In this document: in pieces, positions 12,626-64,000 of the stretch
Layout of the letters: each line of letters opens with the position of its first letter
Position numbering within the stretch: the stretch's first letter is position 1
Origin: a virus
Strand: one strand, 5' to 3'
Virus record (IMG/VR): IMGVR_UViG_3300020442_000005
Location: 186,001 to 250,000 of that record
Length of the DNA: 64,000 nt
The notes under the pieces: generated by a model
What the model saw: the letters and a program-made list of their open reading frames with translations, nothing else
Told to the model about the DNA's origin: nothing
The model's database searches: none
Translations under genes and position numbers: made by a program

Positions 12626-12970
12626 GTGAGCAACATATACGACAGTTATCTCAGCCAAGATACGCCGGTCATCAGTTATGATGACAGGTGCATTGTTGTA
12701 TTCGATGAAAATAAATCGTTGATTGGTAAATTTAACAAAATACTTAAAAATGAAAATAATAACACTGATTTTGTTATGTTCTTTTCAATCGGAACCGGTG
12801 CTGTTTATTATTTTGGAATTAAACCCACAAAAATCATAATTAATAATGATAGCAAACAAATGATCGTAACGGCGGAAGACTTTACAGTATCATCAGTAAC
12901 GGTTGACAGAAAACACAACCAGTATGCAATGACAGTTGAGGCGAAAAATGAAAAATATACTAGGAATTAA
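12626..12970 (+). CDS. Hypothetical protein
   Basis: 114 aa, unrecognised and rich in beta-type residues (CIVVFDENKSLIGKF, FVMFFSIGTGAVYYF). GTG 12626 is chosen because it lies just after the previous stop and avoids a long overlap. The 3' end overlaps the next gene by 23 nt. Confidence 0.5.
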   Translation: MSNIYDSYLSQDTPVISYDDRCIVVFDENKSLIGKFNKILKNENNNTDFVMFFSIGTGAVYYFGIKPTKIIINNDSKQMIVTAEDFTVSSVTVDRKHNQYAMTVEAKNEKYTRN

Positions 12971-13580
12971 TCTTCAGGATCTTTTAAAAGAGGCTGTAAA
13001 AGAATCTGTTGGCGACATCGTTTCCTCTAAGGGAAGTGATAATGAAAAACTTAAGCAAAAACAAGCTGCGCATGCGATGAAAAGTTTCAAGGCAGCCAAA
13101 AAGTCAAAACAAGGCATCGATAAAGACGAAGACAAAACTGGAACTGCAGTTGATGAAGATGAAGATACAGCAGGTCTTATAAATAAAAAAAGCTCATCAG
13201 AAGAAACACCCGATGTTGATTTACCAGCTATTATTGATTTAATAGGTAGCATCCGTTCAGGTAGATCATTAAAAGATAAGGATGTACTAAAAGACTTTAA
13301 GATTTATTTTAAAAGACTGAATGGAAATGAACGCCTGGCTCTGTACGCCTTCTTGACCGGTATATCAAAAATCATGTTGGCGCCAGAATCTGAAGATCTT
13401 GAAAAGGTCAAGAAACCGTCATCAGACCCTTATTCTGTGCAAATGGACAGAGAAATTGAGAAGAAAAAATCAGATTCAGACAGTAAATCATCTAGCAAAA
13501 AATCTGATGATACACCTATCATGATCGGTGAGGCTCAAGACAAGACCGATATACTACGCAAACTCAGAGTTTACCGGTAA
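12948..13580 (+). CDS. Virion-type protein with N-terminal leader
   Basis: 210 aa from ATG 12948, with GAGG 6-10 bases upstream. The N-terminus MKNILGINLQDLLKEAVKES resembles the leader family. A Lys/Glu/Asp-rich disordered region follows (residues 25-85), then a helical domain (VDLPAIIDLIGSIRSG to YAFLTGISKIML) and a Ser/Lys tail. Family unknown. Confidence 0.6.
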   Translation: MKNILGINLQDLLKEAVKESVGDIVSSKGSDNEKLKQKQAAHAMKSFKAAKKSKQGIDKDEDKTGTAVDEDEDTAGLINKKSSSEETPDVDLPAIIDLIGSIRSGRSLKDKDVLKDFKIYFKRLNGNERLALYAFLTGISKIMLAPESEDLEKVKKPSSDPYSVQMDREIEKKKSDSDSKSSSKKSDDTPIMIGEAQDKTDILRKLRVYR

Positions 13581-13584
13581 CGAT

Positions 13585-14166
13585 ATGTCCAAGTTAAGAA
13601 GAGTAATCCGAAAAATATTATTAGAAAGCATGACCAACAAAGCGTGGTCGTTCTTTAACCAGCAAGATGGTTTTGAACAAATGACTCGAAGAGAAGTGCC
13701 ATCAAAAGAATTGCTGAGTAGCAATAGAAATGTTTACTATGGCCGCTATATTTTAGACAACTGCCAAACTTTGTTTCAGATTGAAGAAACCGAGATATAC
13801 GACTTTGTTAATAATGAAGGTGTGCAGGTTGTATATATACATGGCTTGAGATCGACGCCACCGATGGAATGCCAGGGTAAAGGTATGGGAACACACGTGA
13901 TGAACAAGATTATGGAGTTCGCTGATTCTTTGGGCATGGGTGTCGCGGGAGAAGTTGTACCCTACGGATCCTCTAAAATGTCACGCGATGACATGAGAGC
14001 ATTTGACGCCAGGTTTGGTCTGTTTCCACTTGAACATTATTTACAGTTCCTCGATCCACTCGATGCAGCAGATGAGGACGTGATGTATGAAATTAACGAG
14101 TTTATTAATTCAAACACTGACATGGTGTGGAGACCAGCAAAAGGATCAATGCCGGAGCCACTATGA
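13585..14166 (+). CDS. Leader-bearing GNAT-like acetyltransferase
   Basis: 193 aa. Residues 1-15 are the leader MSKLRRVIRKILLES. The body contains VVYIHGLRSTPPMECQGKGMGTHV and MNKIMEFADSLGMGV, matching GNAT motif A, where Q/R-x-x-G-x-G/A holds acetyl-CoA. An acyl transfer activity is therefore likely, but the acceptor is unknown. The previous gene ends 4 bases before this ATG. A GNAT domain behind a virion leader suggests an enzyme delivered in the particle (inference). Confidence 0.65.
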   Translation: MSKLRRVIRKILLESMTNKAWSFFNQQDGFEQMTRREVPSKELLSSNRNVYYGRYILDNCQTLFQIEETEIYDFVNNEGVQVVYIHGLRSTPPMECQGKGMGTHVMNKIMEFADSLGMGVAGEVVPYGSSKMSRDDMRAFDARFGLFPLEHYLQFLDPLDAADEDVMYEINEFINSNTDMVWRPAKGSMPEPL

Positions 14167-14417
14167 AAACACTACGAGAAACAATACGAAGAATCATACT
14201 CGAGACGAAGTCACACCGATGTTTGAGCGGCAAATTGGTTGATAAAGACAGTATGGAATGTTATAACGATGTTTGCATGCGTATCGAAGATATGACCTAC
14301 GAGCGTGATTTAAACAACAGAGGTACAGCAAATCGAGCTTATTACAATGGCGTTCTTTCAGATTTGCGCAAAAGAAGACGCCGCCTAGAAAAATTACATG
14401 GGATAAACAAAAGATAA
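14163..14417 (+). CDS. Small leader-bearing basic protein
   Basis: 84 aa. It begins MKTLRETIRRIILETKSHR, a clear leader, then CLSGKLVDKDSMECYNDVC with paired Cys and a very basic C-terminal helix (DLRKRRRRLEKLHG). It overlaps the GNAT-like gene by 4 nt (ATGA). DNA binding in the head is plausible, but no family is recognised. Confidence 0.6.
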   Translation: MKTLRETIRRIILETKSHRCLSGKLVDKDSMECYNDVCMRIEDMTYERDLNNRGTANRAYYNGVLSDLRKRRRRLEKLHGINKR

Positions 14418-14419
14418 CA

Positions 14420-14429
14420 TATAATTATA
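14420..14429 (+). promoter_or_regulatory. Palindromic TATAATTATA element (candidate late promoter)
   Basis: Exact copy of the 10-bp palindrome, followed by a second overlapping TATAAT (14426-14431), 50 bp upstream of the ParB-like leader-bearing gene. No -35 is recognisable. Confidence 0.55.
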
Positions 14430-19119: not shown

Positions 19120-20709
19120 ATGCCTGAAGCAGCGAAGAAAAAGTTAATATTTCATGACGAAGCCCGATCTATACTTTTAGACGGAGTGAACAAGTTGGCT
19201 GATGCTGTCAGTGTTACAATGGGTCCGGGTGGTCTTAATGTAGTAATACAAAGAGAGAACTCGGTACCTATTCTAACAAAGGACGGTGTGACTGTTGCAC
19301 GTGCAATTAATTTACCAGATGAAATGGAAAATTTGGGAGTGCAGCTAGTGAAAGAGGCAGCTCAAGGGGCAGCTGATATAGCCGGAGATGGTACAACTAC
19401 ATCGACCGTGTTGGCTCGTGAAATTTTCTCGCTGGGCTTGAGAGCCATGGCCGCTGGAAACAGTTCCGTCGATATTAGGGAAGGCCTGCGCCAAGCCGGC
19501 GAGGAAGCTATCAAGCTGATAAACCAAAACTCGATACCAATTCAGACTGACGAACAAATAAAGCAGGTTGGTACCATATCAGCAAACGGTGAGGAAGAAA
19601 TCGGTCAGTATTTAGCAAACGCAATGTCCGCAGTCGGAAGAGAAGGCATCATTGCAGTTGAAGAAGCGAAGGGCTTTAAAACCAGTCTTGAAAAAGTGTC
19701 AGGTACCAGAATCGACCGAGGATTCGTAAGCCCATATTTTATTAACAATGCAGCGAAAAGTCATTGCGTTCTTAATAAACCAAAGGTACTACTTGCCAAC
19801 AGAAAAATTAGCTCGATGCGTGAACTGTTGCCGTTGTTAGAAGCTGCGCATGAACGTCAGAAACCAATATTGATTATTGCGGATGAAGTGGAAGGCGAGG
19901 CTTTAAACGGACTTGTAGTAAACGCCTCCAATGGAACTATCAAGGTTTGCGTAATCAGACCGCCAGAGTTCGGTCAAAATAGACTAGGTGCAATGGAGGA
20001 TTTGGCAGTCCTTTTGGGAACAAAAGTATATCGATCATCTGATGATCTTGCAACCGTAAATTTTGACACTCTCGGTACCGCAAAAAAGATTACTGTCAAA
20101 AAAACAGAGACAGTTATTCTTGAGCCAGGAGGAGACGAGGTTGAAATAGTCAAACAGAAGGATTCTATCCGTGAAGAACTTGCCACACCTGGACTGGAAA
20201 AATCTCTGAACGACGCCCTGCAACGAAGGTTGTCACGATTGGCAGACGGAATTGCAATTATAAGAGTTGGTGGCGCAACGGAAGCAGAGCTAAGAGAAAG
20301 AAAGGATCGAGTCGAAGACGCTTTACACGCAACGAGAGCCGCTGCAAATAAAGGGATTCTACCGGGTGGAGGAACGGCATTGCTGAGAGTTTCAGAAAAA
20401 ATAAAAGTTCCAGACGATGAACGTCTGCATGCAGGTTTTAGAATAATACAATTGGCCTGTAGAAAACCACTTACTCAAATCGTAAATAATGCTGGAATGG
20501 TACCCGAAGTAATTATTGAAAAGGTGTTGGCATCAGATAACTTTGATTATGGGTATAACGCTAGAACAAACACTTTTGGAGATTTGAAGGAAATGGGAGT
20601 CATTGATCCAACTTTAGTCCTGGTGTCAGCTTTAAGACACAGTGTTTCAGCGGCAGATAATTTGCTCAGCGTAGCCTGTGCAATGCATGATATAGATTCT
20701 AAATTCTAG
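19120..20709 (+). CDS. groEL: GroEL-type chaperonin (phage type)
   Basis: 529 aa, close to full HSP60 length. Visible are DAVSVTMGPGGLNVVI, the ATP loop AGDGTTTSTVLAR (residues 89-100), VEDALHATRAA and GILPGGGTALLR. The Gly-Gly-Met tail of bacterial GroEL is missing. It should fold phage proteins in an ATP-dependent ring. No groES is seen in the window, so it either uses host GroES or works without it, as reported for some large-phage GroELs. It is translated with the small upstream genes. Confidence 0.93.
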   Translation: MPEAAKKKLIFHDEARSILLDGVNKLADAVSVTMGPGGLNVVIQRENSVPILTKDGVTVARAINLPDEMENLGVQLVKEAAQGAADIAGDGTTTSTVLAREIFSLGLRAMAAGNSSVDIREGLRQAGEEAIKLINQNSIPIQTDEQIKQVGTISANGEEEIGQYLANAMSAVGREGIIAVEEAKGFKTSLEKVSGTRIDRGFVSPYFINNAAKSHCVLNKPKVLLANRKISSMRELLPLLEAAHERQKPILIIADEVEGEALNGLVVNASNGTIKVCVIRPPEFGQNRLGAMEDLAVLLGTKVYRSSDDLATVNFDTLGTAKKITVKKTETVILEPGGDEVEIVKQKDSIREELATPGLEKSLNDALQRRLSRLADGIAIIRVGGATEAELRERKDRVEDALHATRAAANKGILPGGGTALLRVSEKIKVPDDERLHAGFRIIQLACRKPLTQIVNNAGMVPEVIIEKVLASDNFDYGYNARTNTFGDLKEMGVIDPTLVLVSALRHSVSAADNLLSVACAMHDIDSKF

Positions 20710-23675: not shown

Positions 23676-23970
23676 CCACATTGCAATCCAAGTTGAGTCT
23701 ATCGAAGATTCTGTAAAATGGTATTGTGATAGATTCGGCGGTGAAATATTATACTCGGACGAAACTTGGGCAATGATAGATATGGGAAACGTAAAATTGG
23801 CATTAACGATTCCATCGCAACACCCGCCACACATTGCAATAAAAATTAAATCGATCGATGATTTTCCCAAAAACAAAAAAATAAAGACCCACCGTGACGG
23901 GTCTTTGTTTGTTTATCAATCTGACGATTGTGGTAATGTTATTGAATATATCTACTATCCAGAATCTTAA
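23668..23970 (+). CDS. Glyoxalase/VOC superfamily protein
   Basis: 100 aa from ATG 23668. IDHIAIQVESIEDSVKWYCD, WAMIDMGNVKLALT, PPHIAIKI and CGNVIEYIYYP give the paired beta-alpha-beta-beta-beta pattern of the vicinal oxygen chelate fold. The reaction is unknown: members act as lyases, dioxygenases or resistance proteins. An 8-bp hairpin (AAAGACCC/GGGTCTTT, 23883-23906) followed by GTTT lies inside the coding region. The gene converges with, and overlaps by 4 nt, the minus-strand virion block. Confidence 0.75.
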   Translation: MIDHIAIQVESIEDSVKWYCDRFGGEILYSDETWAMIDMGNVKLALTIPSQHPPHIAIKIKSIDDFPKNKKIKTHRDGSLFVYQSDDCGNVIEYIYYPES

Positions 23971-24572
23971 CCTTCGACTTCTGCAGCTGAGTCAACAACG
24001 CTTTCAGGTACTTGTTCACCCTCTTTGTCTCCACCCGGAAGATACTTGAGAATCATATCGATGCCTGGTACAACACTTAAAACTTCGCTCCAGGATAGAT
24101 TGCAAAGAGAATCAGCAACTTTTTCAGCCATTTCCTCCGCCGGCTCCCCAAAAATAGTTTGCAGCTTTTGCGAAAACTCTCCATCTTTATCTAATCCCAA
24201 CGTTTTTGGAATGTCCTGCACGATCAAACCTATTAGAGTTGAAGAAAACTTCTGTAGGGTTTCTTTGCAGCCACCTTTACCCATTACGATATTGGCAATA
24301 TCTTTGATACCCGATTTCTCAAAGAACTTTGTGATTGCAGTGGCACCGATTCCTTTAGGTTCAATTTTAAGCATGTCAACGACTGCTTTACCAACTGCCT
24401 TTTTAACTCCACCAAAAGCTCCATCAGCCAAATCTGTAAAGAAATCAAATATTCCTTCGTTGAGTGACCGGATTCTTTGAGTTTCTCTGTATTCCAGCAA
24501 GATTGAATGTCTTACGTATGATCTTATTTGAGATTCAATAATAAGATCTCGTCTACTTTGCGTGTAGTACAT
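23967..24572 (-). CDS. Leader-bearing virion-type protein
   Basis: 201 aa. The N-terminus has three leader-like [LI]-x-E sites: RRDLIIESQ, RHSILLEYR and RIRSLNEGIFDFF. The rest is helical and Ala/Gly/Lys-rich with one Cys-containing loop (GKGGCKETLQKF) and an acidic tail. No enzyme family recognised. GAGGAG precedes the ATG and a palindromic TATAATTATA lies 26 bp upstream. Confidence 0.65.
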   Translation of the reverse strand: MYYTQSRRDLIIESQIRSYVRHSILLEYRETQRIRSLNEGIFDFFTDLADGAFGGVKKAVGKAVVDMLKIEPKGIGATAITKFFEKSGIKDIANIVMGKGGCKETLQKFSSTLIGLIVQDIPKTLGLDKDGEFSQKLQTIFGEPAEEMAEKVADSLCNLSWSEVLSVVPGIDMILKYLPGGDKEGEQVPESVVDSAAEVEG

Positions 24573-24628: not shown

Positions 24629-25360
24629 TTATTTTTTCTTTGATGACTTCTTCTTCTTGCCACCTTTCTTTTTCTTAACTACAGCCCATGATTTTGATGG
24701 AGTAGCAGAATTAACTCTTGCATGTGCCCATTGGTGTTGTGACATCCCTTTTCGCGAACCGCTGCTCGCCCAAGCTGCAAGTCCTTTTTCGAACTCTCTA
24801 TATACGGAGCTACGGGTTAAACCACGTTTGTCTGCTTTTTTATCGAGTGATTTTTTTGTTTTGGCTGAAAGTTTTTCCAACAAAATTTTGCGAACTAATG
24901 CACGTGCATAAGCCTCGTTCTTTCGTTCCTTCTTTTCCATTTTTTCTCTCCTGTTGTATGCTCTCTGTTCCAGTTCTTTGGCCTTTCCGGTTTTGCCTTG
25001 TTTCCGAAGTTTTTTGGCTTTTTTTAAATCTTCTTGGGTTTTATCTAGTTGTTTGTCCCTTTTTGATCCTTCGGGGGCACCATATTGTTTTAAGTGTCCT
25101 GACGAATCCTTTGCAGCCTCTGTAAGTTCGTCGATTTCTTCAAGCAATTCGTCTAGTGTTTCGTCAACTTCTCGTGGCCCGCCTTCAATAGCAGCGCGCT
25201 GTCCGGATGCGCCTTTTTTTGACGTGTGGCAACCGGCTTTTACATAGCCTTGACTGTCTTTCTTTTTCTTTGTCGGACTTTTAGGTTTATACTTGAGGAC
25301 GTATTTTCCTTTTTTACCATCCGATCTAGTACAATTCTGTTTAACTGTTTTATATGGCAT
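24629..25360 (-). CDS. Lys-rich virion-type protein with internal leader-like motif
   Basis: 243 aa, extremely basic. The N-terminal part is Lys/Gly/Ser-rich, an acidic helix follows (ETLDELLEEIDELTEAAK), then a coiled coil. The leader-like motif ALVRKILLEKLSA lies internally near residue 155. The last domain (residues 165-230) with FEKGLAAWASSGSRKGM and QHQWAHARVNSATPS matches a domain common in large marine phages (DUF5872-like, from memory). Probably DNA-associated in the head. Confidence 0.65.
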   Translation of the reverse strand: MPYKTVKQNCTRSDGKKGKYVLKYKPKSPTKKKKDSQGYVKAGCHTSKKGASGQRAAIEGGPREVDETLDELLEEIDELTEAAKDSSGHLKQYGAPEGSKRDKQLDKTQEDLKKAKKLRKQGKTGKAKELEQRAYNRREKMEKKERKNEAYARALVRKILLEKLSAKTKKSLDKKADKRGLTRSSVYREFEKGLAAWASSGSRKGMSQHQWAHARVNSATPSKSWAVVKKKKGGKKKKSSKKK

Positions 25361-25377: not shown

Positions 25378-25773
25378 CTATCGCACGCCGTGCATTGATC
25401 TTAAGGCTTCTATGTTTGGAATCTTTTGTGCTGCATTTGGTCTCACGATAGACAAAAGAACGGCCTCTAATTGAACGCGTTCTTTTTCTTCCGGGTTGAA
25501 CATTCTGAAAGTCGGAGACATAAGTGGAGCGGAAGCTAGGTATTGTGGATCTATGCTTCGTATGAAATCTTGGAGATTTAATCCTTCAAATTCACCATTG
25601 TATCCACTAAAGGCAACCCTTGCCTTTTCGTAGAAATCTGGATATTTACTTTGGATATCAGCCCATTCTTGAAATTTGCCAAACCCGCCCATTGGTCGGT
25701 TGCCTCTTCGGCCGTAGCTAGAATTAAACGTCTCTAAAATAATTCTTCTAATTTGGGTTCTTGTTAATTTCAT
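25378..25773 (-). CDS. Leader-bearing virion-type protein
   Basis: 131 aa from ATG 25773, the second of two adjacent ATGs and the better spaced from GGAG. It begins MKLTRTQIRRIILETFN, a typical leader, followed by a Gly/Arg-rich linker and a helical domain (FQEWADIQSKYPDFYEKAR). Domain unknown. It overlaps the stop of the upstream gene. Confidence 0.65.
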   Translation of the reverse strand: MKLTRTQIRRIILETFNSSYGRRGNRPMGGFGKFQEWADIQSKYPDFYEKARVAFSGYNGEFEGLNLQDFIRSIDPQYLASAPLMSPTFRMFNPEEKERVQLEAVLLSIVRPNAAQKIPNIEALRSMHGVR

Positions 25774-26660
25774 CATGAACTCCACGTCTCTGGCCGAGGA
25801 CCACCTCTGTAAAATCCTATTCTCATCTGATCAACAACATTGAAGGCTTTAGTGAATCCTTTCACCGCATCTCTCTCGTCTTGAGAATTTTTAATTAGAT
25901 GATCCATCATAGAATACTTTTCAATATCTCTCATTACGCCTTCTCTACTGGGATTTTGTCCAGCAAAACCCATGCCAGGAACTCGATTGGTCTCGGCAAC
26001 TCTTCGGAAGAACGTATAGTATCCAACTTTGTAGGCTTGGCTTCTGTTGTATCGATCCATCGTTTTAAATCTAGGAGATCCAAACATGTCATCGTAATCA
26101 AGAATATCCTGCCATGCAATGTCGAGAGCAATTGAAAGCTCTGTTGGTCGACCATTATTGTGATATGCCGACATCAGATCTGGCTGGTAGTGTTTTTGTC
26201 GAGCCTCACCTATTATGCCTTCTTCGATTATTCGCTCACCCCGAGGCATATCCTCATCGAATCCTTGTGGACCAGGGTCTGTTTTACGGTATTCGTCAAC
26301 AAGATATTCGTATGCGCCTTCTTCGAATTCTCTTTCATAGGGCGCAAAAGCATATTCATCTACGGGATGGTCATCACCATAAAACTTCATGAAGTTGTAC
26401 CCCATTATGTACGCAAACTCATAACCATCCGAATCTGCATTTAAATGTCCACCCTTGTTAAGCCAATCCATTATCTGGCCTATTAAACCTGCATGATCGA
26501 TTTTATAAGCATCTGCCAGACTAATGGCTTGCAGATGATCACTTTTTCTGCCGGTGTAGTATTGATACAATTTCTTAAGTTGATGATCTGGTATGACGTA
26601 CAGCTGTTGCTCAATTGATTCTCTAATGATCTGCCTAAGTTGTCTTTTTGTGATTTTCAT
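25773..26660 (-). CDS. Leader-bearing virion-type protein
   Basis: 295 aa from ATG 26660, where the leader MKITKRQLRQIIRESIEQQ begins. The frame is open further upstream, but that part would overlap the next gene. The body is rich in Tyr, Phe and Asp (GYEFAYIMGYNFMKFYGDD, AYKVGYYTFFRRVAETNR) and contains a second [LI]-x-E site (EGIIGEARQ). No family recognised. Confidence 0.65.
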   Translation of the reverse strand: MKITKRQLRQIIRESIEQQLYVIPDHQLKKLYQYYTGRKSDHLQAISLADAYKIDHAGLIGQIMDWLNKGGHLNADSDGYEFAYIMGYNFMKFYGDDHPVDEYAFAPYEREFEEGAYEYLVDEYRKTDPGPQGFDEDMPRGERIIEEGIIGEARQKHYQPDLMSAYHNNGRPTELSIALDIAWQDILDYDDMFGSPRFKTMDRYNRSQAYKVGYYTFFRRVAETNRVPGMGFAGQNPSREGVMRDIEKYSMMDHLIKNSQDERDAVKGFTKAFNVVDQMRIGFYRGGPRPETWSS

Positions 26661-26661: not shown

Positions 26662-27099
26662 TTACCATAAATCCTTGCAAGCCCAGTGTCTAGCTGAAAG
26701 TTTATTATTCTTAGTTGATTGTAAATCACACTTGTGTCTGGCTCTGAAGCTTTTTCGTCTTTTGGGATCTTTGTGCTGACTAAAATGCTGCATACCTCGA
26801 TGTCCGTAATGGATGATTTTTTCTTTCCCATCTTGACATGCTTTTACGGTTTTCTTTTTCTTACTTCCGGCAGCAGCCCTACGCGGTTTATTACATTTCA
26901 TTTTGTCTTTATCAAGTTTCTTCTTTTTTGCTTCGTCGACATCAGCTTCCCGAAGATCTGTCTCGTTTTTTGGAACGCAGTTTGGCACAAGTCGGTTTCC
27001 TTTTTTCTTCATTCCAACTTGCTTGTGGCTCTTCCAACAGGCTTCAAGAATTACTGTTCTGATTGCTCTTCGCAGCTTCATTTCATTTCTATAATTCAT
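26662..27099 (-). CDS. Leader-bearing basic Cys/His-rich protein
   Basis: 145 aa. The leader MKLRRAIRTVILEACW starts at residue 7. Then comes CWKSHKQVGMKKKGNRLVPN, a motif that recurs in large marine phages. The C-terminal part (KIIHYGHRGMQHFSQHKDPK, SFRARHKCDLQ, SARHWACKDLW) is His/Cys/Arg-rich and might bind metal or nucleic acid. It is the first gene of the minus-strand block. Confidence 0.65.
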   Translation of the reverse strand: MNYRNEMKLRRAIRTVILEACWKSHKQVGMKKKGNRLVPNCVPKNETDLREADVDEAKKKKLDKDKMKCNKPRRAAAGSKKKKTVKACQDGKEKIIHYGHRGMQHFSQHKDPKRRKSFRARHKCDLQSTKNNKLSARHWACKDLW

Positions 27100-32379: not shown

Positions 32380-32517
32380 ATGTATTATGTTAGGAGCGTC
32401 GTTAGATTTATAAGTCAACGGCTATGTAAACCAAAAACAATAAACAAAGAATTAGATCCGGAGTACTGTGATGCCTGTGAATGCACGCCCTGTGATTGCG
32501 GATTTGGGAGTTATTAA
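32380..32517 (+). CDS. Cys-rich micro-protein upstream of metK
   Basis: 45 aa. It opens MYYVRSVVRFISQRL. The C-terminal third, EYCDACECTPCDCGFG, has five Cys and could bind zinc or another metal. It starts at the last base of the dnaJ-like stop and its own stop overlaps the metK ATG (TAATG), so the three genes are coupled. GGAG lies upstream. Not recognised. Confidence 0.5.
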   Translation: MYYVRSVVRFISQRLCKPKTINKELDPEYCDACECTPCDCGFGSY

Positions 32518-33500
32518 TGTCATTTAAAAATTATAGAACAGCAGAATGCGTCACACCAAAACATCCGGACAAAATTTGTGATACGATTTCTGACGCAATC
32601 TTAGACCATTGTCTTAAGTCAGATCCATATTCTCGAGTTGCCATTGAGACTGCTGGCGGCCATGGCCATATTCACATCACTGGTGAGATTACAACAAATG
32701 CCTTTTTGCCGCTTGAAGAAATTGCAACAGAGGTTTATGGAAAGCCAATCAAAGTTACGACCAATGTTGTACAACAAAGCAATGAGATCGCGCAAGGTGT
32801 TGACACAGGTGGAGCCGGAGATCAAGGGATTATGGTAGGCTATGCATGCGATCACAATCCAGAAATGATTCCAAACGAGTTGTTTCTTTCAAGACAGATC
32901 TGCAAAGAAATATTTAAAGCCTTTCCGTTTGATGGTAAAACACAGGTCACTCTAGAAAACAACAAAATCAAGACAGTTGTTGCCAGTTTTCAAAACGCTC
33001 CGAAAACAGAACTGACAAGAATCATCAATGGTTGGCTAAGGTCTTGTAGTTTTCCAGTCGATGATAACGTTACCCTTCACTGTAACCCAGCTGGAGATTG
33101 GAAAGTCGGTGGCTTTGATGCGGATGCCGGACTTACCGGTAGAAAGATCGTGATTGATAACTATGGCCCAGCTATCCCAGTCGGTGGAGGAGCATTCTCT
33201 GGTAAAGATCCAACAAAAGTAGATCGGTCCGCCGCATATATGGCTAGAAAAATTGCTGTAGATCACTTGCAACTTCTTCCAAAAAGAAAAGATGGAAACG
33301 AAATCTACGTTTATCTTGCTTATGCTATTGGCTATGACCAACCTGTACAAGCAACGATGATCGTTAACGGAAAAGAGAAATTAGTAACTGGATACGATTT
33401 AAGTCCGAACGGAATTATTGAGCATCTGGATCTAAGAAAACCAAAGTACTTTGAAACTGCACGTTGGGGCCATATGGGCACTGACCAAACATGGGGATAA
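32517..33500 (+). CDS. metK: S-adenosylmethionine synthetase
   Basis: 327 aa, shorter than the usual 380-400. Motifs: HPDKICDTISDAILD, GAGDQGIMVGYACDH, LTGRKIVIDNYGP and GGGAFSGKDPTKVDRSAAY (ATP and metal binding), then YAIGYDQPVQ and the end FETARWGHMG. It makes AdoMet from methionine and ATP. It opens a metK, queF-like, metH, ahcY cluster covering the activated methyl cycle. GGGAG precedes the ATG. The upstream in-frame ATG at 32496 is rejected since it lies inside the Cys-rich ORF. Confidence 0.95.
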   Translation: MSFKNYRTAECVTPKHPDKICDTISDAILDHCLKSDPYSRVAIETAGGHGHIHITGEITTNAFLPLEEIATEVYGKPIKVTTNVVQQSNEIAQGVDTGGAGDQGIMVGYACDHNPEMIPNELFLSRQICKEIFKAFPFDGKTQVTLENNKIKTVVASFQNAPKTELTRIINGWLRSCSFPVDDNVTLHCNPAGDWKVGGFDADAGLTGRKIVIDNYGPAIPVGGGAFSGKDPTKVDRSAAYMARKIAVDHLQLLPKRKDGNEIYVYLAYAIGYDQPVQATMIVNGKEKLVTGYDLSPNGIIEHLDLRKPKYFETARWGHMGTDQTWG

Positions 33501-33501
33501 A

Positions 33502-33945
33502 ATGAGTTCTGAATCAACACCAAAACCAAAAAGAAAAAGAAACTGGGCAAAGAACAGAGATATTCTGAAAGCTATACCAAACCCTTCCGGGGATGCGTAT
33601 GAGATTAAAATGAAAATACCTGAGCTTACATTTGAAGGTGTTCGATCTCAGCCGGATTTTGCTAATCTGTATATCACTTTTTACCCGGGCAAAAAAGTTA
33701 TTGAGCTTAAGTCATTGAAAGAATATTTCTTTGCTTTTAGATCACAAATATATTCATATGAAAGAATCATCAATGTTATCTACGATGATATGATGGCTGT
33801 GTATGAACCAACAAGATTGCGACTGGTCATGACTTGTAATCCTCGTGGTGGGATCTCGTCTAAATTAACTGTAGATTCAGACTGGGGAGTTCGTGGTGGC
33901 AATGACCAGTTTATGGATTGGGTAGGGCAAAAAGAAGAATGGTAA
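33502..33945 (+). CDS. QueF-like tunnelling-fold protein without the catalytic Cys
   Basis: 147 aa from ATG 33502. [38 protein letters not shown] and CNPRGGISS are hallmarks of QueF (preQ0 reductase). The nucleophile Cys of CPVTGQPD is replaced: here the segment reads EGVRSQPD, with Glu at about residue 45. Nitrile reduction as known is thus unlikely. It might bind a 7-deazaguanine or have another activity. No other queuosine gene is in the window. It overlaps metH by 7 nt. Confidence 0.75.
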
Positions 33946-36900
33946 GTTTTGATAAAAATCAGATCTATATTATTGATGGTGCAATGGGCACCGAAATACA
34001 GAAAAGACAGGTTGAATCCAAATTCTTTAAATACGAAGGAATCGACTGCGATGGCTTTAATGATATTTTGGTGCTCACCAAACCCGGCCTGATAAAAGAT
34101 ATACACGGTGATTACATCAACTCCGGCGCAAATATCATTGAGACAAATACCTTTAACGCTAATTATATTTCAGCGTTAGATTACGGACTTAGTGATGGAG
34201 CGATCGATAAAATAAACTTTAGCGCTGCCAAAATTGCAAAACAGGCTGCAAAAAAATCTAAAGAAGAGGTGTATGTAGCCGGTGTTTTAGGCCCGACTTC
34301 AAAAACTTTAAGCATGTCACCAAACGTTACAGATCCTTCTTATAGAGATATCACGTACCATGAATTACTCAATGCTTATAAAGCCGCAACTGAAAATCTA
34401 ATTCGTGGTGGCGCAGATTTGATTTTAATCGAAACAGTCTTTGACACACTTAATGCCAAGGCTGCGATTGAGGCTGTGAGACTGGTAGGAGAAGATATTC
34501 CTATCATGATATCAGGTACAATCGTTGACATGTCTGGTCGGACTTTATCTGGCCAGACTGTCGAGGCTTTTTGGAATTCCATTAAACACGCAAGGCCTAT
34601 TAGTGTTGGTTTGAATTGTGCGCTAGGTGCAAAGCAAATGGATCCATTTCTGCGGCGTCTAGCAGACGTCAGTGGTTGCGCAATCAGCGCACATCCGAAC
34701 GCGGGGTTACCAAACGAATTAGGTGAATACGACCAATCCCCGTCTGATATGGCAAACTATATTAAGAACTGGGCAAAAGCCGGGATTGTAAATATAATAG
34801 GTGGATGTTGTGGGTCGACTCCGGATCACATCAAAAAGATAGCCAACACCGTAAAAAAGTTTAAACCCAAAAGGCACATAACCAGAAGTTTTAATTTGGA
34901 CCGGTCAATGATTCTTTCTGGTTTAGAGGTCTTTGATAGCAAAGGAAAGAACTTTATTAATATTGGCGAGCGAACAAACGTCACTGGGTCTTCAAGGTTT
35001 AAAAAATGTATCGTAGAAAAAAGATATGATGATGCGTTGAATATTGCTCGTTCGCAGATTCTAAATGGCGCCCAGATTATCGATATCAATATGGACGATG
35101 GACTCTTAGATTCTAAGAGTGAAATGATTAATTTTTTAAAAATGTTGGCATGCGAGCCTGATATTGCAAAAGTACCAATCATGCTTGATTCTTCGAAGTG
35201 GGATATCCTATCGGAAGCCATGAGATGGATACAAGGGAAAGGTATTGTAAATTCAATTTCTCTTAAAGATGGAGAATCAGACTTTCTTGCCCGGGCAAAA
35301 GAAATTGTTTCGTGCGGACACGCTTTTGTGGTAATGGCTTTTGATGAAAAAGGGCAGGCTGATACTTTTGATAGAAAAATAGAGATATGTGAACGCGCTT
35401 ATTGGATTTTAGTTAACGCAGGAATAAAGCCACAAGACATTATTTTTGATCCAAATATCTTTGCAATCGCCACCGGGATAGAAGAACACGACAACTATGC
35501 AGTCGACTTTATAACTGCTACTGCATGGATTAAAAAGAACCTGCCTGGATGCTACGTCTCCGGAGGATTATCAAACCTATCATTCTCTTTCAGGGGAAAT
35601 CCTCGCGTGAGAGAGATGATGCATTCCGTCTTTTTGTTTCATGCTATCAAAGCCGGGTTGGACATGGCGATTGTAAACGCAGGTCAACTAATGGTGTACG
35701 ACCAGATCGATCAAGGCCATCGGGACATTGTTGAATCTGTTATTTTAAATAAGCATGAAGAAGCATCGGCACAGCTTTTAGAATTAGCAAAATCTCTATC
35801 TGGTAAAACCCGAGTAGAATCTAACGGGTTCCAAGAATGGCGTAACGAAGAGGTTGAAGAAAGAATATCTTTTGCCCTTATAAACGGTATCGATAAATTT
35901 ATCGTCGAAGATGTCAAGGAATGTTACAACAAAATAGGCTCGGCATTAAACGTTGTTGAAGGACCGTTGATGGATGGTATGAACGTAGTTGGAGACCTTT
36001 TTGGCTCCGGTAAAATGTTTTTACCTCAAGTAGTCAAGTCAGCGCGTGTAATGAAAAAAGCAGTCTCGTGGCTCGAGCCTTTTATGGTTGGCACAGATGA
36101 AGCAATACAGAGGGAAAAAATACTGCTTGCCACAGTTAAAGGCGACGTTCATGACATTGGAAAAAACATTGTTAGTATAGTTCTTCAATGTAATGGATAC
36201 GAGATAGTTGATCTAGGAGTCATGGTTCCATTAGAAAAGATACTAGAGGAAGCTGATAAACACCAGGTTGCAGCAATCGGTCTTAGCGGATTGATTACAC
36301 CAAGTTTAGATGAGATGGTTAAAGTTGCTCGAGCAATGAATGAAAGACAAATGGATATACCTTTACTAATTGGTGGAGCAACAACATCAAAAGTTCACAC
36401 GGCAATCAAAATATCTCCGGAGTACTCAAAAACAGTATATATACAAAATGCATCGATTGCAGTCGGAATTGTTAATGACGTGTTAAGTAAGAGTGATGCA
36501 TTCGATAAGATTAATAGGGATTATGAAGAAACTAGGGAGAGAAGAAACTCGAGAAAGCAAACGTTTGTAAGTGTTTCTGATGCAAGAAGAAATGCATATC
36601 AGCTAAAAGGAAAGCCACAGATTCCAGATAACTTTGGAATGACTATCAAAAGCAAAGCTTCAGTTTCAGAGATCATACCATATATTGATTGGGCACCGTT
36701 TGCAATGACTTGGGGAATGAAACCAAAAGATCTTACAAGCCAAGTCGGTAAAGATCTAATGAAGGATGCCCGAGAAATGCTTCGAAAACTTGATGATAAG
36801 ATTGTAGTTAACTATTCATTTGCTATCGATAAATGTACAAAAACAAATAATGACGATGTACTGGTGAAAAGACCGGATAAATCAACGACTTTTAATTTCA

Positions 36901-41231: not shown

Positions 41232-41242
41232 TTACAATAGGG

Positions 41243-41902: not shown

Positions 41903-41906
41903 CTTT

Positions 41907-41978
41907 TGGTCTGTAGTGTAATAGGTAACACACCAGTTTTTGGCACTGGCGTTCTAGGTTCAAGTCCTGGCAGACCAG
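41907..41978 (+). tRNA. tRNA-Gln (TTG)
   Basis: 72 nt. Acceptor TGGTCTG/CAGACCA, anticodon stem CCAGT/ACTGG with anticodon TTG, T-loop TTCAAGT. It lies 4 bp after tRNA-Arg. Confidence 0.92.
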
Positions 41979-42018
41979 CTTTTATACAACTTTAAACAAT
42001 AGGGTATTATTATTTATG

Positions 42019-42058
42019 GGTCTAGTTAACCTCGAGGGTTCGAACCCCTCTATGACCA
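42019..42058 (+). pseudogene. tRNA remnant (T-arm and acceptor only)
   Basis: GAGGG-TTCGAAC-CCCTC is a perfect T-arm, followed by TATGACC and A as a 3' acceptor. Only GGTC at 42019 pairs with GACC. The D-arm and anticodon arm are absent (about 9 nt instead of 45). It looks like a deleted tRNA gene. Confidence 0.55.
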
Positions 42059-42059
42059 A

Positions 42060-42180
42060 GCAGGCAGGGAGCAATGACTAGATGTCGCCAACAGAAAGAT
42101 ATTCACCAGTATCTCCTTTTGGTTGATAAGCCTTGGGATAGGAAAGTGGTGAGTCCTATCCCAAAGTTCCATCCTTAACT
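42060..42180 (+). ncRNA. Possible structured RNA within the tRNA cluster
   Basis: No ORF fits here. It holds a perfect 11-bp hairpin (TTGGGATAGGA/TCCTATCCCAA, 42133-42164, 10-nt loop) and a smaller AGATA/TATCT hairpin before it. It lies between the tRNA remnant and tRNA-Thr and is probably transcribed with them. Identity unknown. Confidence 0.4.
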
Positions 42181-42189
42181 TCATCACAC

Positions 42190-42262
<73 letters not shown>

Positions 42263-42265
42263 TAG

Positions 42266-42338
42266 GCGGGAATAGCTCAGTTGGTAGAGCACCACGTTGC
42301 CAACGTGGAAGTCGCGAGTTCAAGTCTCGTTTCCCGCT
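42266..42338 (+). tRNA. tRNA-Gly (GCC)
   Basis: 73 nt. Acceptor GCGGGAA/TTCCCGC, D-arm GCTCAGTTGGTAGAGC, anticodon stem CCACG/CGTGG with loop TTGCCAA (anticodon GCC), T-loop TTCAAGT. Confidence 0.93.
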
Positions 42339-42343
42339 CTTTT

Positions 42344-42416
42344 GGACACTTAGCTCAGCGGTCAGAGCATCCGACTCATAATCGGCAGGTCCAGGGTTCA
42401 ATCCCCTGAGTGTCCA
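42344..42416 (+). tRNA. tRNA-Met (CAT)
   Basis: 73 nt. Acceptor GGACACT/AGTGTCC, D-arm GCTCAGCGGTCAGAGC, anticodon loop CTCATAA (anticodon CAT), T-arm CAGGG/CCCTG. A CAT anticodon could also be a lysidine-modified tRNA-Ile. Confidence 0.88.
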
Positions 42417-42421
42417 CTTTC

Positions 42422-51420: not shown

Positions 51421-51825
51421 ATGAAGATTACAAAGAGCCAATTAAAAAGAATCATTCGAGAAGAATACACACGACTTATGCACAGTGGTTTACTAGCTGA
51501 AACTAATTACATGGCTATGGGTGCTCCATACGACAGTCAATTATTTGCCGATTGGTGCGATGCAGTAGACAGCTTGTACGATGACGTTCCATCTTGGACT
51601 ACCAACGCGTTAGGGTACCTTTGGGAACAAGACATTGAAGAAATGTTAGATGAAGACGGGAATTATTATGTTAAGACCTTGTTTGCATCAACTGGCGCTT
51701 ACGATGGTTGTGCATCTCTTGTGAAGTTGGCTATGGATAACGGATCAAAACCTAGACACGTAGAGTACCTTATGAATAAATTCTTAAAATTCGCAAGAGA
51801 AGAGCAAGGATACACTGTCGTCTAA
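51421..51825 (+). CDS. Leader-bearing virion-type protein
   Basis: 134 aa. The leader MKITKSQLKRIIREEYTRL continues to SGLLAET, a perfect [LI]-x-E site at residue 27. The acidic body (DWCDAVDSLYDDVPSWTTNA) has no known domain. The leader is almost the same as in the genes at 51907 and 53732, while the bodies differ. Confidence 0.7.
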   Translation: MKITKSQLKRIIREEYTRLMHSGLLAETNYMAMGAPYDSQLFADWCDAVDSLYDDVPSWTTNALGYLWEQDIEEMLDEDGNYYVKTLFASTGAYDGCASLVKLAMDNGSKPRHVEYLMNKFLKFAREEQGYTVV

Positions 51826-51906: not shown

Positions 51907-52287
51907 ATGAAAATATCAAAACGACAACTCAGAAGAATAATCAAAGAAGAATACTCACGACTTGCCCGGCATGGACTTATCAAAGAGGCGAACGAATTTT
52001 ATGTAAGTGCAAGCGACCCGATCGTGATGGAAATTATCGATATTGCAAAAGATGCAGTGCAGCGTGGTAAGCCGGGTATCACATATCAAGATATTGAGTA
52101 TGCATTTTACGAGGCTGCTGAGCCTGATGAGTTCGTTCATCCGGTTAGCTATGAAGACATCGACTTTGTAACGTCAATGAACGAGATGGATATTGAGAGT
52201 TTTTTGAATCACTTGGCTGGCATGGGTGTCCTGAGGTTGGTTTCAAGCCCTAGTAGCCGAGTTGCTATGTACGCAGCTGCCGTATAG
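51907..52287 (+). CDS. Leader-bearing virion-type protein
   Basis: 126 aa. Leader MKISKRQLRRIIKEEYSRL then HGLIKEANE. The body is related to the protein at 53732 (a repeated helical domain ending in an FLNHLAGMGVLRLV wing, like a winged helix). Confidence 0.7.
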   Translation: MKISKRQLRRIIKEEYSRLARHGLIKEANEFYVSASDPIVMEIIDIAKDAVQRGKPGITYQDIEYAFYEAAEPDEFVHPVSYEDIDFVTSMNEMDIESFLNHLAGMGVLRLVSSPSSRVAMYAAAV

Positions 52288-52296: not shown

Positions 52297-53421
52297 ATGT
52301 CAGAAAAAATACTTAGAGAGTATATAAAAGGCCTTTTGCTGAGTAATTCTGACGTCCTTCTTGAGAGGGCTAAAAGAAAAAAAGCCAGACAGAACAATAT
52401 AGATAAAGAGATAATGGCTGCAGCCAAATCAGCTGAAGCTGAAGGGCAGAGTTTTACTAGTCAATATTTTGCTGGCTACATTATGGATTCATATCCAGAT
52501 TTTACTCATGTCCGCAGCCGAAAAGACAAAAATTATCTAAATGACCTAGCTGAAGAACCAATAAGCTTGCAGGCGCTTCTGGACAGCTTGGTTGATTTTG
52601 ATTTGCTAGAAGTGACCGGCCAGCAGAATAATTTTAAAATATATTCGATAACTGGCCGGCCCAAAACAAAACCGGATATTAAGAGGGGTGATTTTAACGG
52701 AGCCTCCGAGCAAGAGTTTTATAATTATCTCCAGGAAATCTTAGATTCGGATAGTTATTTGACTGATATGAAAGAGGCCATGGAGCATTTCGGCGGCGGT
52801 CTTTTGTTTGATCTTTTCGTTAAAAATCAAAATCCTGCATTTACGAGAAAAGTGACCCCACCCCAGGGTACTGATAACCGAACTGATAAATTAATAGACT
52901 ATTCGACTATGTTTGATTTAAACGGCGCATTAGCTCGAAACGAATGGAGTGCGGTACTTACTCCTCAATTCAAATTCAGAAATAATAGTAGGACAAAGAA
53001 AGTAAGGGGAGTTTTTGTCCGCTTCAATCACGTGCATTCTCTAATGGAACCATGGCAACTTCTTATTCGAATGGTTGATAAGGCAATTTTTGATTTCCTT
53101 AAGAGTCGACCAACATTTGCAAATAAGGAAGAGTTTAGATTACGACTTTTAGATTCGTTCTGGCAGTTTCCGCTCGAGGTTGATGCCGGCGGTTTACACT
53201 TAGAATTGACAAATTTGCCGATTCCTGGAAAACCATATTACTTTCATACCGCTGATGTGTTGACATCAGCAAATATAAATAAAGCAATCTCATGGCTTGA
53301 CTCGAATGGAACTGACCCTGAAGATCAAATATATCTGGTGCTTCGTAACGCAAACAACGAAACAGTGGTAAATCGAATATCTCAGGCCGCCAAACATAAA
53401 CAAAAAGAAGAAGCCAGATAA
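52297..53421 (+). CDS. Leader-bearing virion-type protein
   Basis: 374 aa. N-terminus SEKILREYIKGLLLSNSDVL then LLERAKRKK, a variant leader. Next is a small winged-helix-like domain, then an unknown domain of about 250 residues with FGGGLLFDLFVKNQNPAFTR. AGAGAG precedes the ATG. Confidence 0.62.
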   Translation: MSEKILREYIKGLLLSNSDVLLERAKRKKARQNNIDKEIMAAAKSAEAEGQSFTSQYFAGYIMDSYPDFTHVRSRKDKNYLNDLAEEPISLQALLDSLVDFDLLEVTGQQNNFKIYSITGRPKTKPDIKRGDFNGASEQEFYNYLQEILDSDSYLTDMKEAMEHFGGGLLFDLFVKNQNPAFTRKVTPPQGTDNRTDKLIDYSTMFDLNGALARNEWSAVLTPQFKFRNNSRTKKVRGVFVRFNHVHSLMEPWQLLIRMVDKAIFDFLKSRPTFANKEEFRLRLLDSFWQFPLEVDAGGLHLELTNLPIPGKPYYFHTADVLTSANINKAISWLDSNGTDPEDQIYLVLRNANNETVVNRISQAAKHKQKEEAR

Positions 53422-53731: not shown

Positions 53732-54046
53732 ATGAAAGTATCAAAAAGACAATTGAAAAGAATCATTCGAGAAGAATATTCAAGGCTAAAACGATCTGGA
53801 CTTCTTAACGAAGCCATGGGACTAGGTAACGACATGTATGTCGAGCAAATCATGGAAGAGCTTCGTGATGGTGACGAACTGTCCTATATGGAATTATCAA
53901 GAGCATTGAGTCCAATCATACCAGGCTTTGATGAAGCTGAATTAGGAAATGCAATTGATCACGCTTTGCAAAGGGGAATGATTCAAGCTCGTATGGGAAG
54001 AGATGGATTAGGCGTGTTTATGGTGTCACCCCAGTACATGATGTAA
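53732..54046 (+). CDS. Leader-bearing virion-type protein
   Basis: 104 aa from ATG 53732 (AAGGA upstream). Leader MKVSKRQLKRIIREEYSRL then SGLLNEAMG. The body (YMELSRALSPIIPGFDEAEL to ALQRGMIQARM) reads as a small winged helix, similar to the 51907 gene. Ends before a terminator. Confidence 0.7.
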   Translation: MKVSKRQLKRIIREEYSRLKRSGLLNEAMGLGNDMYVEQIMEELRDGDELSYMELSRALSPIIPGFDEAELGNAIDHALQRGMIQARMGRDGLGVFMVSPQYMM

Positions 54047-57414: not shown

Positions 57415-58101
57415 ATGATTTTAACTAGAAGCGAATTAAGATATCTTATAAAAGAGGCCGTTGAACAGAAACAGGCAAATGAGTTGGAAAAAAGATATGA
57501 TCAATTTTTCGACAAGGCCGAAGTAGCTGGAGCAGATTTCCTTGAAGATCTTGCTAAAGAAATGAAAGCCGCGGCCGCAGAAGAAAGCCAGAGCTTAGAC
57601 GAAGTGGATCCAATTATTTTGGGTGCCAGTTTCGCCGCAGCAATGCCTATTCTAATGAAGGGAGTTGAGAAGCTTATTGCGTCTATAGCTTCAGGTCTGA
57701 AGGGTATCGATAATTTAGTGATAGGTCGTGGACGGCTTTACGATGCTGGCGAGCGAATGGATCAATGGGTTGATTGGTGGGCAACAAAATCTGAGGAACT
57801 TCATCATGCTTATATTGGTGGAATCGAAAAAATAATCGATGCAGCTTGTTTTATAACTCGCAAAAACCCACCGCAAGAAAGTCGTCACAAAGCAGCTAAA
57901 GCAATATGGACAATGATTGTCGCGTATTTAATGGTTCAGTCTGGAATCGGTGTTCTTAAAGCTGTCGGTCATCACGCTTATGGTATTGCCGGTATTGAAG
58001 GAGTTTTAGCAACGATTAAAGCCGGAGAGATTGGCGTATACCTTTACGACGTGTTTGAAACTCTACTGGCCGCCGGGACTGTGGCGGTTTTAGCAACATA
58101 A
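57415..58101 (+). CDS. Leader-bearing membrane-type virion protein
   Basis: 228 aa from ATG 57415. The leader MILTRSELRYLIKEAVEQ is followed by an acidic helix, then hydrophobic stretches (PIILGASFAAAMPILM, AIWTMIVAYLMVQSGIGVL and an Ala/Val-rich end). It could insert into the host membrane during DNA entry (inference). Confidence 0.65.
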   Translation: MILTRSELRYLIKEAVEQKQANELEKRYDQFFDKAEVAGADFLEDLAKEMKAAAAEESQSLDEVDPIILGASFAAAMPILMKGVEKLIASIASGLKGIDNLVIGRGRLYDAGERMDQWVDWWATKSEELHHAYIGGIEKIIDAACFITRKNPPQESRHKAAKAIWTMIVAYLMVQSGIGVLKAVGHHAYGIAGIEGVLATIKAGEIGVYLYDVFETLLAAGTVAVLAT

Positions 58102-62375: not shown

Positions 62376-62407
62376 TATGGTTTTCATATACTTTTGTCCT
62401 CAAACTG

Positions 62408-62417
62408 TATAATTATA
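62408..62417 (+). promoter_or_regulatory. Palindromic TATAATTATA element (candidate late promoter)
   Basis: Exact copy after the terminator and 28 bp before a leader-bearing gene. No -35 is found at 17 bp. Confidence 0.57.
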
Positions 62418-62445
62418 CTTTGTTAATGATGGGCTGAGATGTTTC

Positions 62446-63252
62446 ATGAAAAATTATGTTTTAAGAAAAATCATATCAAATTTGATTGTTGAGAACTTTA
62501 AGGTCAGAGGTTATATAAAGCCGGCTGAGAGTTTTCACTCCCTTGGCGAATTACAGGCCATGGCAAATTATGTTTTAAATCTTCAGCGTGCTGGCTATGA
62601 CGCGAGGGATAAAAATTCTGGACTGTTATTGAATTTGCTCTACGAATATATGCCCCATATTGAAGACGATATAGAAAGATACGGTGCGAGATTTGACATA
62701 ACAAATGTATATAACTTTTTAGAAGATTTTGCAAACCATCGAGTCTGGTCCTTTGAAGACCAGTTTGGCCAATATTTCCCGGACATAGGTAGTTTAAGAT
62801 TCTCGTATTTTTATTCTAGGGGAGACATGGAACCATATGTGCTTCTGGATGAGAACTACACAAAGCAATTGTATGGATCCACAGATAATGTATACACTGT
62901 GAAACATTATACTACCGAAGCTGGATTGCAAAACATAGAAGCATCAATCCAAACTGGAAAACCTTTTGATATATCATGCTTCACTGCCATGAAAAAGGAA
63001 TACTTTGACAAGAAATCAAATATTTTATTGACGCTCAAAGGTAACGTGAGGGCTGGCTTTAGATCTGACGTAAAATCTTTTGCTGTCGACAACGGTAGGA
63101 GAGCATGCAACTTATTTAGACTCGGATATCCGGGGGAAGAAACAAATATCTGCGAAAACTTAGATGGATGCGAAGACAATGCTACGTCTATTTGGAATGA
63201 ATATATCGCGACACCATTAGAAATTATCAAAGTAGAGGTATTAAACAGATGA
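62446..63252 (+). CDS. Leader-bearing virion-type protein
   Basis: 268 aa. N-terminus MKNYVLRKIISNLIVENFK is leader-like (LIVEN). The C-terminal half has VYTVKHYTTEAGLQNIEASI, PFDISCFTAMKKEYF, NILLTLKGNVRAGFRSDVKS and NICENLDGCED. The order (a Tyr/His-Thr start, a Ser-Cys-Phe-Thr strand, then a late acidic motif) loosely recalls ADP-ribosyltransferase folds such as T4 Alt, but this is a weak suggestion. Confidence 0.6.
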   Translation: MKNYVLRKIISNLIVENFKVRGYIKPAESFHSLGELQAMANYVLNLQRAGYDARDKNSGLLLNLLYEYMPHIEDDIERYGARFDITNVYNFLEDFANHRVWSFEDQFGQYFPDIGSLRFSYFYSRGDMEPYVLLDENYTKQLYGSTDNVYTVKHYTTEAGLQNIEASIQTGKPFDISCFTAMKKEYFDKKSNILLTLKGNVRAGFRSDVKSFAVDNGRRACNLFRLGYPGEETNICENLDGCEDNATSIWNEYIATPLEIIKVEVLNR

Positions 63253-63605
63253 GAACATGGAAACCATTATTTTTTGAAAACAGTTCGCTGCCATTGATTC
63301 TTTCCGTAGTGGCGCCAATTGATATCGGAGCTATCACACTTGGACCATTCGTATTTTCGCGTGGAGAAATGTCTGAGGTCACTAAAAATCATGAAGCAAT
63401 CCATTGGCAGCAATATATAGAAACCGGGATTATTGGTTTTGTGTTGCTATACTTGCTTTACTGGGTGATTGGTTTGATAAAATACAGAGATGGACAAAAG
63501 GCATACTACCAGATACCCTTTGAACAAGAGGCATATGAAAATCACGAGGATATGGAATATTGCCTAACCAGAAAAAGATATGAATGGTTCCGGAGAAGCA
63601 TCTAA
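63249..63605 (+). CDS. Membrane protein with HExxH motif
   Basis: 118 aa. HEAIHWQQYIETG carries a zinc-peptidase HExxH signature, followed by a membrane span (IIGFVLLYLLYWVIGLI) and FEQEAYENHED, where a third ligand Glu could lie. It may be a small metalloprotease. Overlaps the upstream gene by 4 nt and the next by one base. Confidence 0.6.
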   Translation: MRTWKPLFFENSSLPLILSVVAPIDIGAITLGPFVFSRGEMSEVTKNHEAIHWQQYIETGIIGFVLLYLLYWVIGLIKYRDGQKAYYQIPFEQEAYENHEDMEYCLTRKRYEWFRRSI

Positions 63606-64000
63606 TGTGGCAGCTAAGAAAATACATACGGAATTTATTGTTTGAAAATTTATCAGACGCAACTATTCCACCTCCACCAAAGGAATCAATCGAAGAGTTA
63701 AGTTCGGTTATTAACCAGTACTACGACCGTGTTAACGATGATTCTGTTCAGTACGATTTAGACGAAAGGATGGAATTGCTGTTTAACGAAGTGGTCGAAA
63801 AGAACAGTGGGGAAAACGTTGTTGAATATGTCAAGGAACTAAAGACGCATCCACTGGAAATAGTGTCAGCACTCAAGGAATACTTTGCAAGAAAAAGACC
63901 CGAAGATGTCGCCGCAGATTTTGGTATTGACTGGAAGAGTGATAGCGTTGATATGAAAACTATTAACAACAGTTATTCATATCCATCCGGTCACACTGCT
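63605..64000 (+). CDS. Leader-bearing PAP2-type phosphatase (partial, cut by window end)
   Basis: At least 132 aa, open at the right edge. The leader is MWQLRKYIRNLLFENLSDA. Near residue 98 comes KEYFARKRP, an exact K-x6-RP (PAP2 motif 1), and the window ends in SYPSGHTA, PAP2 motif 2 with the catalytic His. The third motif lies beyond the edge. PAP2 enzymes remove phosphate from lipids or other small molecules, usually at membranes. No membrane span is seen so far. A leader-tagged phosphatase suggests delivery with the virion (inference). Confidence 0.75.
   Translation, partial: MWQLRKYIRNLLFENLSDATIPPPPKESIEELSSVINQYYDRVNDDSVQYDLDERMELLFNEVVEKNSGENVVEYVKELKTHPLEIVSALKEYFARKRPEDVAADFGIDWKSDSVDMKTINNSYSYPSGHTA

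Follow-up and report, generated by a model that had tools for sequence, protein, structure and literature searches.

A basic N-terminal leader shared by dissimilar proteins of a large viral genome: a candidate capsid-targeting signal of the T4 type

Phage T4 encodes three tagged internal proteins that are injected inhibitors of distinct restriction enzymes, and at least 10 tagged internal proteins have been reported across its T-even relatives (PMC12373910). Ten N-terminal residues of the T4 protein IPIII suffice for targeting, and the prohead protease gp21 has the consensus L/I-x-E (PMC9026906). T4 internal proteins are basic, and the similarity among them is restricted to the leader, which starts MKTYQEFIAEA in ipII and ipIII and MKTFKEFTSTT in ipI. 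T4 Alt is likewise packaged into the head, processed by gp21 and ejected. Here we describe an N-terminal leader, a basic amphipathic helix with an [LI]-x-E end, that is shared by otherwise dissimilar proteins encoded in a 64,000-nucleotide stretch of IMG/VR virus record IMGVR_UViG_3300020442_000005 (the window; bases 186001–250000 of this 273,025-base record, termed G000). The record was compared with G009 (288 kb), contig 5 of G011 (305 kb) and G003 (167 kb); unless marked as window positions, coordinates refer to G000.

As with T4 IPI–IPIII and their capsid-targeting signal (CTS), a short N-terminal leader with an L/I-x-E end is common to otherwise unrelated small proteins, the genome encodes a gp21-type protease and a gp23-type capsid protein, and the putative cargo is variable and hotspot-like. 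Unlike MKTYQEFIAEA of T4, the G000 leader is a basic helix (such as MKITKRQLRRIIREE or MKHLRQYIRQILLTEA); about 55 genes are tagged rather than three, they stand in long arrays, and their bodies are acidic. One tagged protein (174903–175760) parallels T4 Alt: it matches the family of phage ADP-ribosylases that act on RNA polymerase and has the catalytic R, S-x-S and E-x-E residues, but it is 285 residues long and bears the new leader, and its ortholog in G003 is leaderless. The inner-body and ejection proteins of phiKZ and SPN3US offer another parallel, with many giant-phage proteins packaged into the head and processed by a head protease. The phiKZ protease recognises S/A/G-x-E (PMC13282480), whereas P3 in G000 is L or I and the protease is of family S77; in phiKZ, neither an S77 match at the cut-off nor the leader pattern was found. 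The Dar proteins of P1 are head-associated and act against restriction at infection (PMC12810830), a possible likeness of role. The leader was not described in the literature searched, a body of work with few subscription papers and no preprints, and its novelty is provisional. On present sequence evidence it would be a T4-type capsid-targeting signal that is new in leader sequence and departs from T4 in two features, leader likeness and basic cargo.

A 12-column profile (position-specific scoring matrix, PSSM) was built from the window leaders, iterated on the genome and then scanned over all open reading frame (ORF) starts. Scores of at least 18 were classed as strong, at least 15 served as a looser cut, and two cases at 11.4 and 12.5 were classed as moderate. 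G000 holds 55 leader ORFs at the strong threshold and 62 at the looser one, while the reversed genome gave 0 at ≥18. Among internal methionines, 2 of 1353 scored as a leader, and 769 kb of random viral DNA contained none. The terminase at 120937 was taken as a false positive of the profile, as were two further ORFs with low scores. Tagged genes fall into 16 groups with a total length of 29.8 kb, about 11% of the genome. Five of them (132445–134386) lie immediately 3′ of the capsid gene, and an almost uninterrupted run of 17–19 (19 at the looser cut) occupies 249605–263662, of which only the first 396 bases fall inside the window.

The initial annotation of the window had recognised the shared leader on 16 genes, with weaker versions on two more. 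The leader is real and the set is larger than proposed; about three quarters of it had been missed because those genes lie outside the window. Eleven of the 16 genes scored as strong and two as moderate (24572(−), 12.5; 62446, 11.4), while the leaders assigned to 14480 (1.6), 15855 (−0.1) and 44738 (−1.7) were rejected by the profile. The homolog of 14480 in G011 scored 16.3. The profile gave no support to the weaker versions at 12948 and 54566.

Two classes of leader were distinguished. Class A follows MK[IVL][TS][KR]xQL[RK]xII[RK]E and often runs on for one more turn, ending in a second [LI]xE (residue 22 or 27); class B follows MKxLRxYIRxILLxE. As the initial annotation had described, the helix is amphipathic and basic, and this holds for both classes; the hydrophobic moment is 0.63, as against 0.35 when the residues are shuffled, and the median charge is +4. 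An [LI]-x-E lies near the helix in 125 of 128 tagged proteins, a count partly built into the profile. Since the first glutamate is inside the profile, the cleavage motif was tested beyond the trained columns. There, a second [LI]xE was present at offset 8–21, mostly 12 or 17, in 41 of 45 leaders of the long class (IIxEE, “EE”), compared with 18–19% in null windows; none of 500 composition-preserving shuffles gave more than 20 of 45. This independent site bears out the earlier proposal that the leader ends at [LI]-x-E. The residue that follows is mostly S, M, A, G, N or T. The same leader peptides are encoded with different synonymous codons, which indicates that selection acts on the protein. 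Codons for K, R, T and E are less varied in leaders than in bodies, and this lower variety could reflect recent exchange.

The genes that tie the leader to head assembly lie outside the window: an S77 (gp21-type) prohead protease at 125400–126011 (PF03420, E = 1.3e-27) and a Gp23-family capsid protein at 130393–132372 (PF07068, E = 9.8e-64). The protease is less than 60% identical to any cultured phage protein, and an IMG/VR search with it returned 476 related stretches. The protein encoded next to and downstream of the protease has the N-terminus MAKVxRSxLKxIVKECLVEILxEG in 77 homologs from related loci. Their median leader-profile score is 13.7 (−6.8 for untagged genes), and [LI]xE is 3.75-fold enriched in them over shuffles. 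A second small neighbour in the protease cluster (LTPxLLRKIVLEEKxRMIRET) resembles the leader more weakly (median score 6.9), with L[RK]xx[IVL] and then E in 28 of 30 sequences. In the capsid protein, a conserved L[RK]E followed by A, S or T is located near residue 60, just ahead of the Gp23 domain, in 37 of 39 relatives. One motif is thus common to the leader ends and the capsid propeptide, and judging by sequence it is the gp21 motif L/I-x-E known from T4 (PMC9026906).

The leader is joined to highly diverse bodies. When sets of 54 and 69 tagged proteins encoded by G000 and its three relatives were aligned, the consensus was essentially confined to the leader, and clustering of 140 tagged proteins by body similarity gave 95 clusters, 79 of them singletons. 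One body family stands behind both leader classes, at 133826 and in the 249.6–263.7 kb run; ten tagged G000 genes share its domain (G000:249605–261799 and G000:133826). This family carries the motif G-x-G-P-x-x-Y-D ... D-R-x-x-V-S, and one copy is fused behind a PAP2 domain. AlphaFold modelling was confident in parts of the body and showed the leader as a low-confidence helix at residues 2–15. A GNAT fold was considered for the family and dropped, as the fold search gave no significant PDB match.

Most tagged bodies had no match at all. The exceptions across viruses were PAP2 (E = 1.1e-11), a zeta-toxin/AAA kinase-like domain (5e-14), an HD domain, DUF5824 and DUF5754. Among the body labels of the initial annotation, PAP2 on the gene at 63605 was upheld by Pfam at that E-value; GNAT and most other labels were not, nor was the description “virion-type”. 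The bodies of G000:254715–255407 and G011:200403–200924 share a YHGT motif reminiscent of ADP-ribosyltransferases, and no family match was found for them. The sequence [LI]-x-E is not above background in tagged bodies (rate 0.013 vs. 0.015). Between G009 and G011, 28% of tagged genes are shared, compared with 67–74% of untagged genes of like size (p about 1e-5); by this measure, tagged bodies turn over faster than other genes.

A further body with a match is the 285-residue protein at 174903–175760, an Alt-family ADP-ribosyltransferase (phrog_832, E = 2.9e-8). Its catalytic residues R165, S191-x-S193 and E255-x-E257 are invariant in an alignment with two phage ADP-ribosyltransferases and the G003 ortholog. 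That ortholog is 37% identical, has no leader and begins at the start of homology, with a stop codon upstream. The predicted cut in the G000 protein falls after residue 19, and homology begins at residue 23, four residues on, which makes this the cleanest predicted boundary between leader and body. The predicted structure of this protein has a pLDDT (predicted local distance difference test) of 56, and a scan of viral contigs for more relatives of it gave no match. Several other homologs at first looked untagged; their start calls were wrong, with the leader in frame upstream, and they were removed from the evidence for tag loss before tagged genes were counted anew.

Leaders recur in related viruses. 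At the score threshold of 18, tagged ORFs number 55 in G000, 38 in G009, 43 in contig 5 of G011 and 11 in G003, and in the relatives they again form long arrays, one of which covers 33 genes. Matches to a degenerate DNA pattern for class A number 16 in G000 and 25 in G009 (reversed pattern, 0), and among the matches listed a class A pattern was found in more than 119 stretches of viral contigs. The pattern was absent from T4, KVP40, P-SSM2, Mosig, Mel-JY01, immuto and phiKZ, as well as from phage G, an Erwinia jumbo phage and two random large contigs. Eight of these 11 pattern-negative large phage records carry S77, which can therefore occur without this leader. A tblastn search of cultured phages with leader peptides gave no match, a weak result as the queries were short and possibly filtered; the pattern search of the nine named phage records is for that reason the better control. 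Contig 5 of G011 sits in a bacterial metagenome-assembled genome (MAG). Long leader arrays were seen in NHDW01000006 and PBIO01000025, assigned to bacterial MAG bins (Methylococcaceae TMED69 and Halobacteriovorax); the 305-kb contig of this pair carries S77 as well, and both contigs appear to belong to giant phages despite their bacterial binning.

The best-supported reading of these data is a capsid-targeting signal of the T4 type whose sequence has diverged and whose use has greatly expanded. We consider it highly probable that the leader is a propeptide with a role like that of the T4 internal-protein CTS, removed by the S77 protease, and that the bodies are delivered to the next host. The steps that we infer are as follows. 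The basic amphipathic helix, of about 12–25 residues, would bind the scaffold core of the prohead and carry any fused body into the assembling head, where the S77/gp21-type protease would cut after the terminal [LI]-x-E and free the body. Freed bodies would then share the head with the packaged DNA and leave it by ejection into the next host, to act there as takeover or counter-defence proteins, the Alt-type ADP-ribosyltransferase and the PAP2 phosphatase being candidate examples. The initial annotation had likewise proposed a modular head-loading tag removed at maturation, and the S77 protease, the Gp23 capsid protein with its own L[RK]E site, the leader-like start of the protease neighbour, the L/I-x-E ends, the modular behaviour of the leader and the putative Alt-type cargo all favour this proposal. 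The sequences themselves show the leader, its motif, its modularity and recurrence, the protease and the link to the head cluster; packaging, cleavage and injection are putative steps.

Several observations weigh against this reading. The leader is unlike the T4 CTS MKTYQEFIAE in both sequence and charge. Tagged bodies are acidic, with a median of −7 per 100 residues compared with about −1 for comparison genes (p = 2e-15), and T4 internal proteins are basic. A search for the T4-type late promoter (TATAAATA) gave no match ahead of the tagged genes or of the virion block, and this sequence was not enriched anywhere. The expected association of leaders with a gp21-type protease did appear, in that S77 was present in 16 of 16 leader-bearing records of at least 120 kb (smaller leader fragments often were without it); S77 is, however, widespread among large phage records in general, and the two random records that reach this size also carry it, so this co-occurrence is consistent but weak evidence.

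Three other explanations were weighed. The leader could be an uncut localisation helix that attaches, during infection, to the inner membrane, the nucleoid or a phage compartment, with [LI]-x-E merely part of the helix. Strong amphipathicity (0.63) and basic charge (median +4) are features of membrane-binding helices, and acidic bodies unlike the T4 internal proteins would suit such a role. Nevertheless, this explanation accounts neither for the second [LI]-x-E at set offsets (12 and 17) with S, A, G, N, T or M after it, nor for the similar N-terminus on the neighbour of the prohead protease and the LRE-A motif of the capsid protein, and we judge it unlikely. Still less probable is a role as scaffold or core constituents, in which the tagged proteins would shape the large head and be degraded at maturation instead of being delivered. 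The protease neighbour does start with an N-terminus of this type and contains many [LI]-x-E sites, and five tagged genes adjoin the capsid gene; tagged bodies, by contrast, show no [LI]-x-E enrichment, include enzymes (Alt-type ADP-ribosyltransferase, PAP2, zeta-toxin/kinase) and are shared between G009 and G011 far less than untagged genes, which would be odd for structural parts.

The least probable explanation, one to which we give very little credence, is a relic of duplication, in which paralogs in tandem retain a common start as their bodies drift apart and no targeting takes place, the near-identical leader DNA perhaps serving as a recombination handle for cassette exchange. The set is indeed partly paralogous, as the ten G000 genes with one common domain show, and the reduced variety of K, R, T and E codons in leaders fits such a history. 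Yet 79 of 95 body clusters are singletons, one body family carries both leader classes, the peptide is fixed while its synonymous codons differ, and the G003 ortholog lost or never gained a leader. A relic, moreover, would not remain the best-conserved part of proteins whose bodies become unrecognisable. Leader DNA may also have a role in recombination alongside targeting.

If the tag works as in T4, about 55 candidates for injected proteins can be read from this single genome, and the profile would point to many more in uncultured giant phages, nearly all of them unannotated in databases. The tag would then lead directly to new anti-defence and host-takeover proteins, and it would add a second signal, independent of that of T4, by which proteins can be loaded into phage heads. 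Anti-defence proteins could be numerous among the small acidic bodies, and some of these could be DNA mimics. We are evenly divided on a broader proposal, that a giant phage lineage has adopted a new, sequence-unrelated capsid-targeting helix as the general tag for a fast-changing arsenal of 40–60 head-delivered proteins in cassette arrays, with leader DNA aiding body swaps. On that proposal, the tag would predict hundreds of injected phage effectors straight from sequence.

Within the window (window positions from here on), two tagged genes on the plus strand overlap at its left: 13585–14166, with leader MSKLRRVIRKILLE followed by S (predicted P1 at residue 14; PSSM 26.0) and a body without Pfam match, and 14163–14417, with MKTLRETIRRIILE followed by T (23.6) and a body that clusters with other tagged bodies. 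The minus strand carries tagged genes at 25378–25773 (MKLTRTQIRRIILE, then T; 22.6), 25773–26660 (MKITKRQLRQIIRE, then S; 32.6) and 26662–27099 (MNYRNEMKLRRAIRTVILE, then A; 18.8), the last with a DUF5754 body (E = 3.6e-8), together with the moderately tagged gene at 23967–24572, whose segment QIRSYVRHSILLE, followed by Y, covers residues 15–27 (12.5). A DUF5754-like basic protein without leader is encoded at 24629–25360 (minus strand), and similar segments occur in leader-bearing G011 proteins (188215 and 191164).

Long leaders with sites at residues 14 and 27 were found on three plus-strand genes, at 51421–51825 (MKITKSQLKRIIREEYTRLMHSGLLAE, then T; 30.2), 51907–52287 (MKISKRQLRRIIKEEYSRLARHGLIKE, then A; 32.1) and 53732–54046 (MKVSKRQLKRIIREEYSRLKRSGLLNE, then A; 31.2). 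The same strand holds tagged genes at 52297–53421 (MSEKILREYIKGLLLSNSDVLLE, then R; 18.7) and 57415–58101 (MILTRSELRYLIKE, then A; 21.5) and the moderately tagged gene at 62446–63252 (MKNYVLRKIISNLIVE, then N; 11.4). The last plus-strand gene, 63605–64000, is truncated by the window edge (525 residues in the genome). Its leader MWQLRKYIRNLLFE, followed by N (25.9), precedes a PAP2 phosphatase (E = 1.1e-11 for the whole gene) and then the domain common to nine other tagged genes, and it opens the 17–19-gene run that reaches genome position 263662.

Two further findings in the window come from inspection by eye. Adjoining genes at 32496–38784 resemble S-adenosylmethionine synthetase, a 1178-residue cobalamin-type methionine synthase and adenosylhomocysteinase; if these identities are right, they would amount to a near-complete activated-methyl cycle in a phage. 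A 529-residue protein encoded at 19120–20709 resembles GroEL/Hsp60. The window also holds six clustered tRNA genes (Leu, Arg, Gln, Thr, Gly and Met) at 41147–42417.

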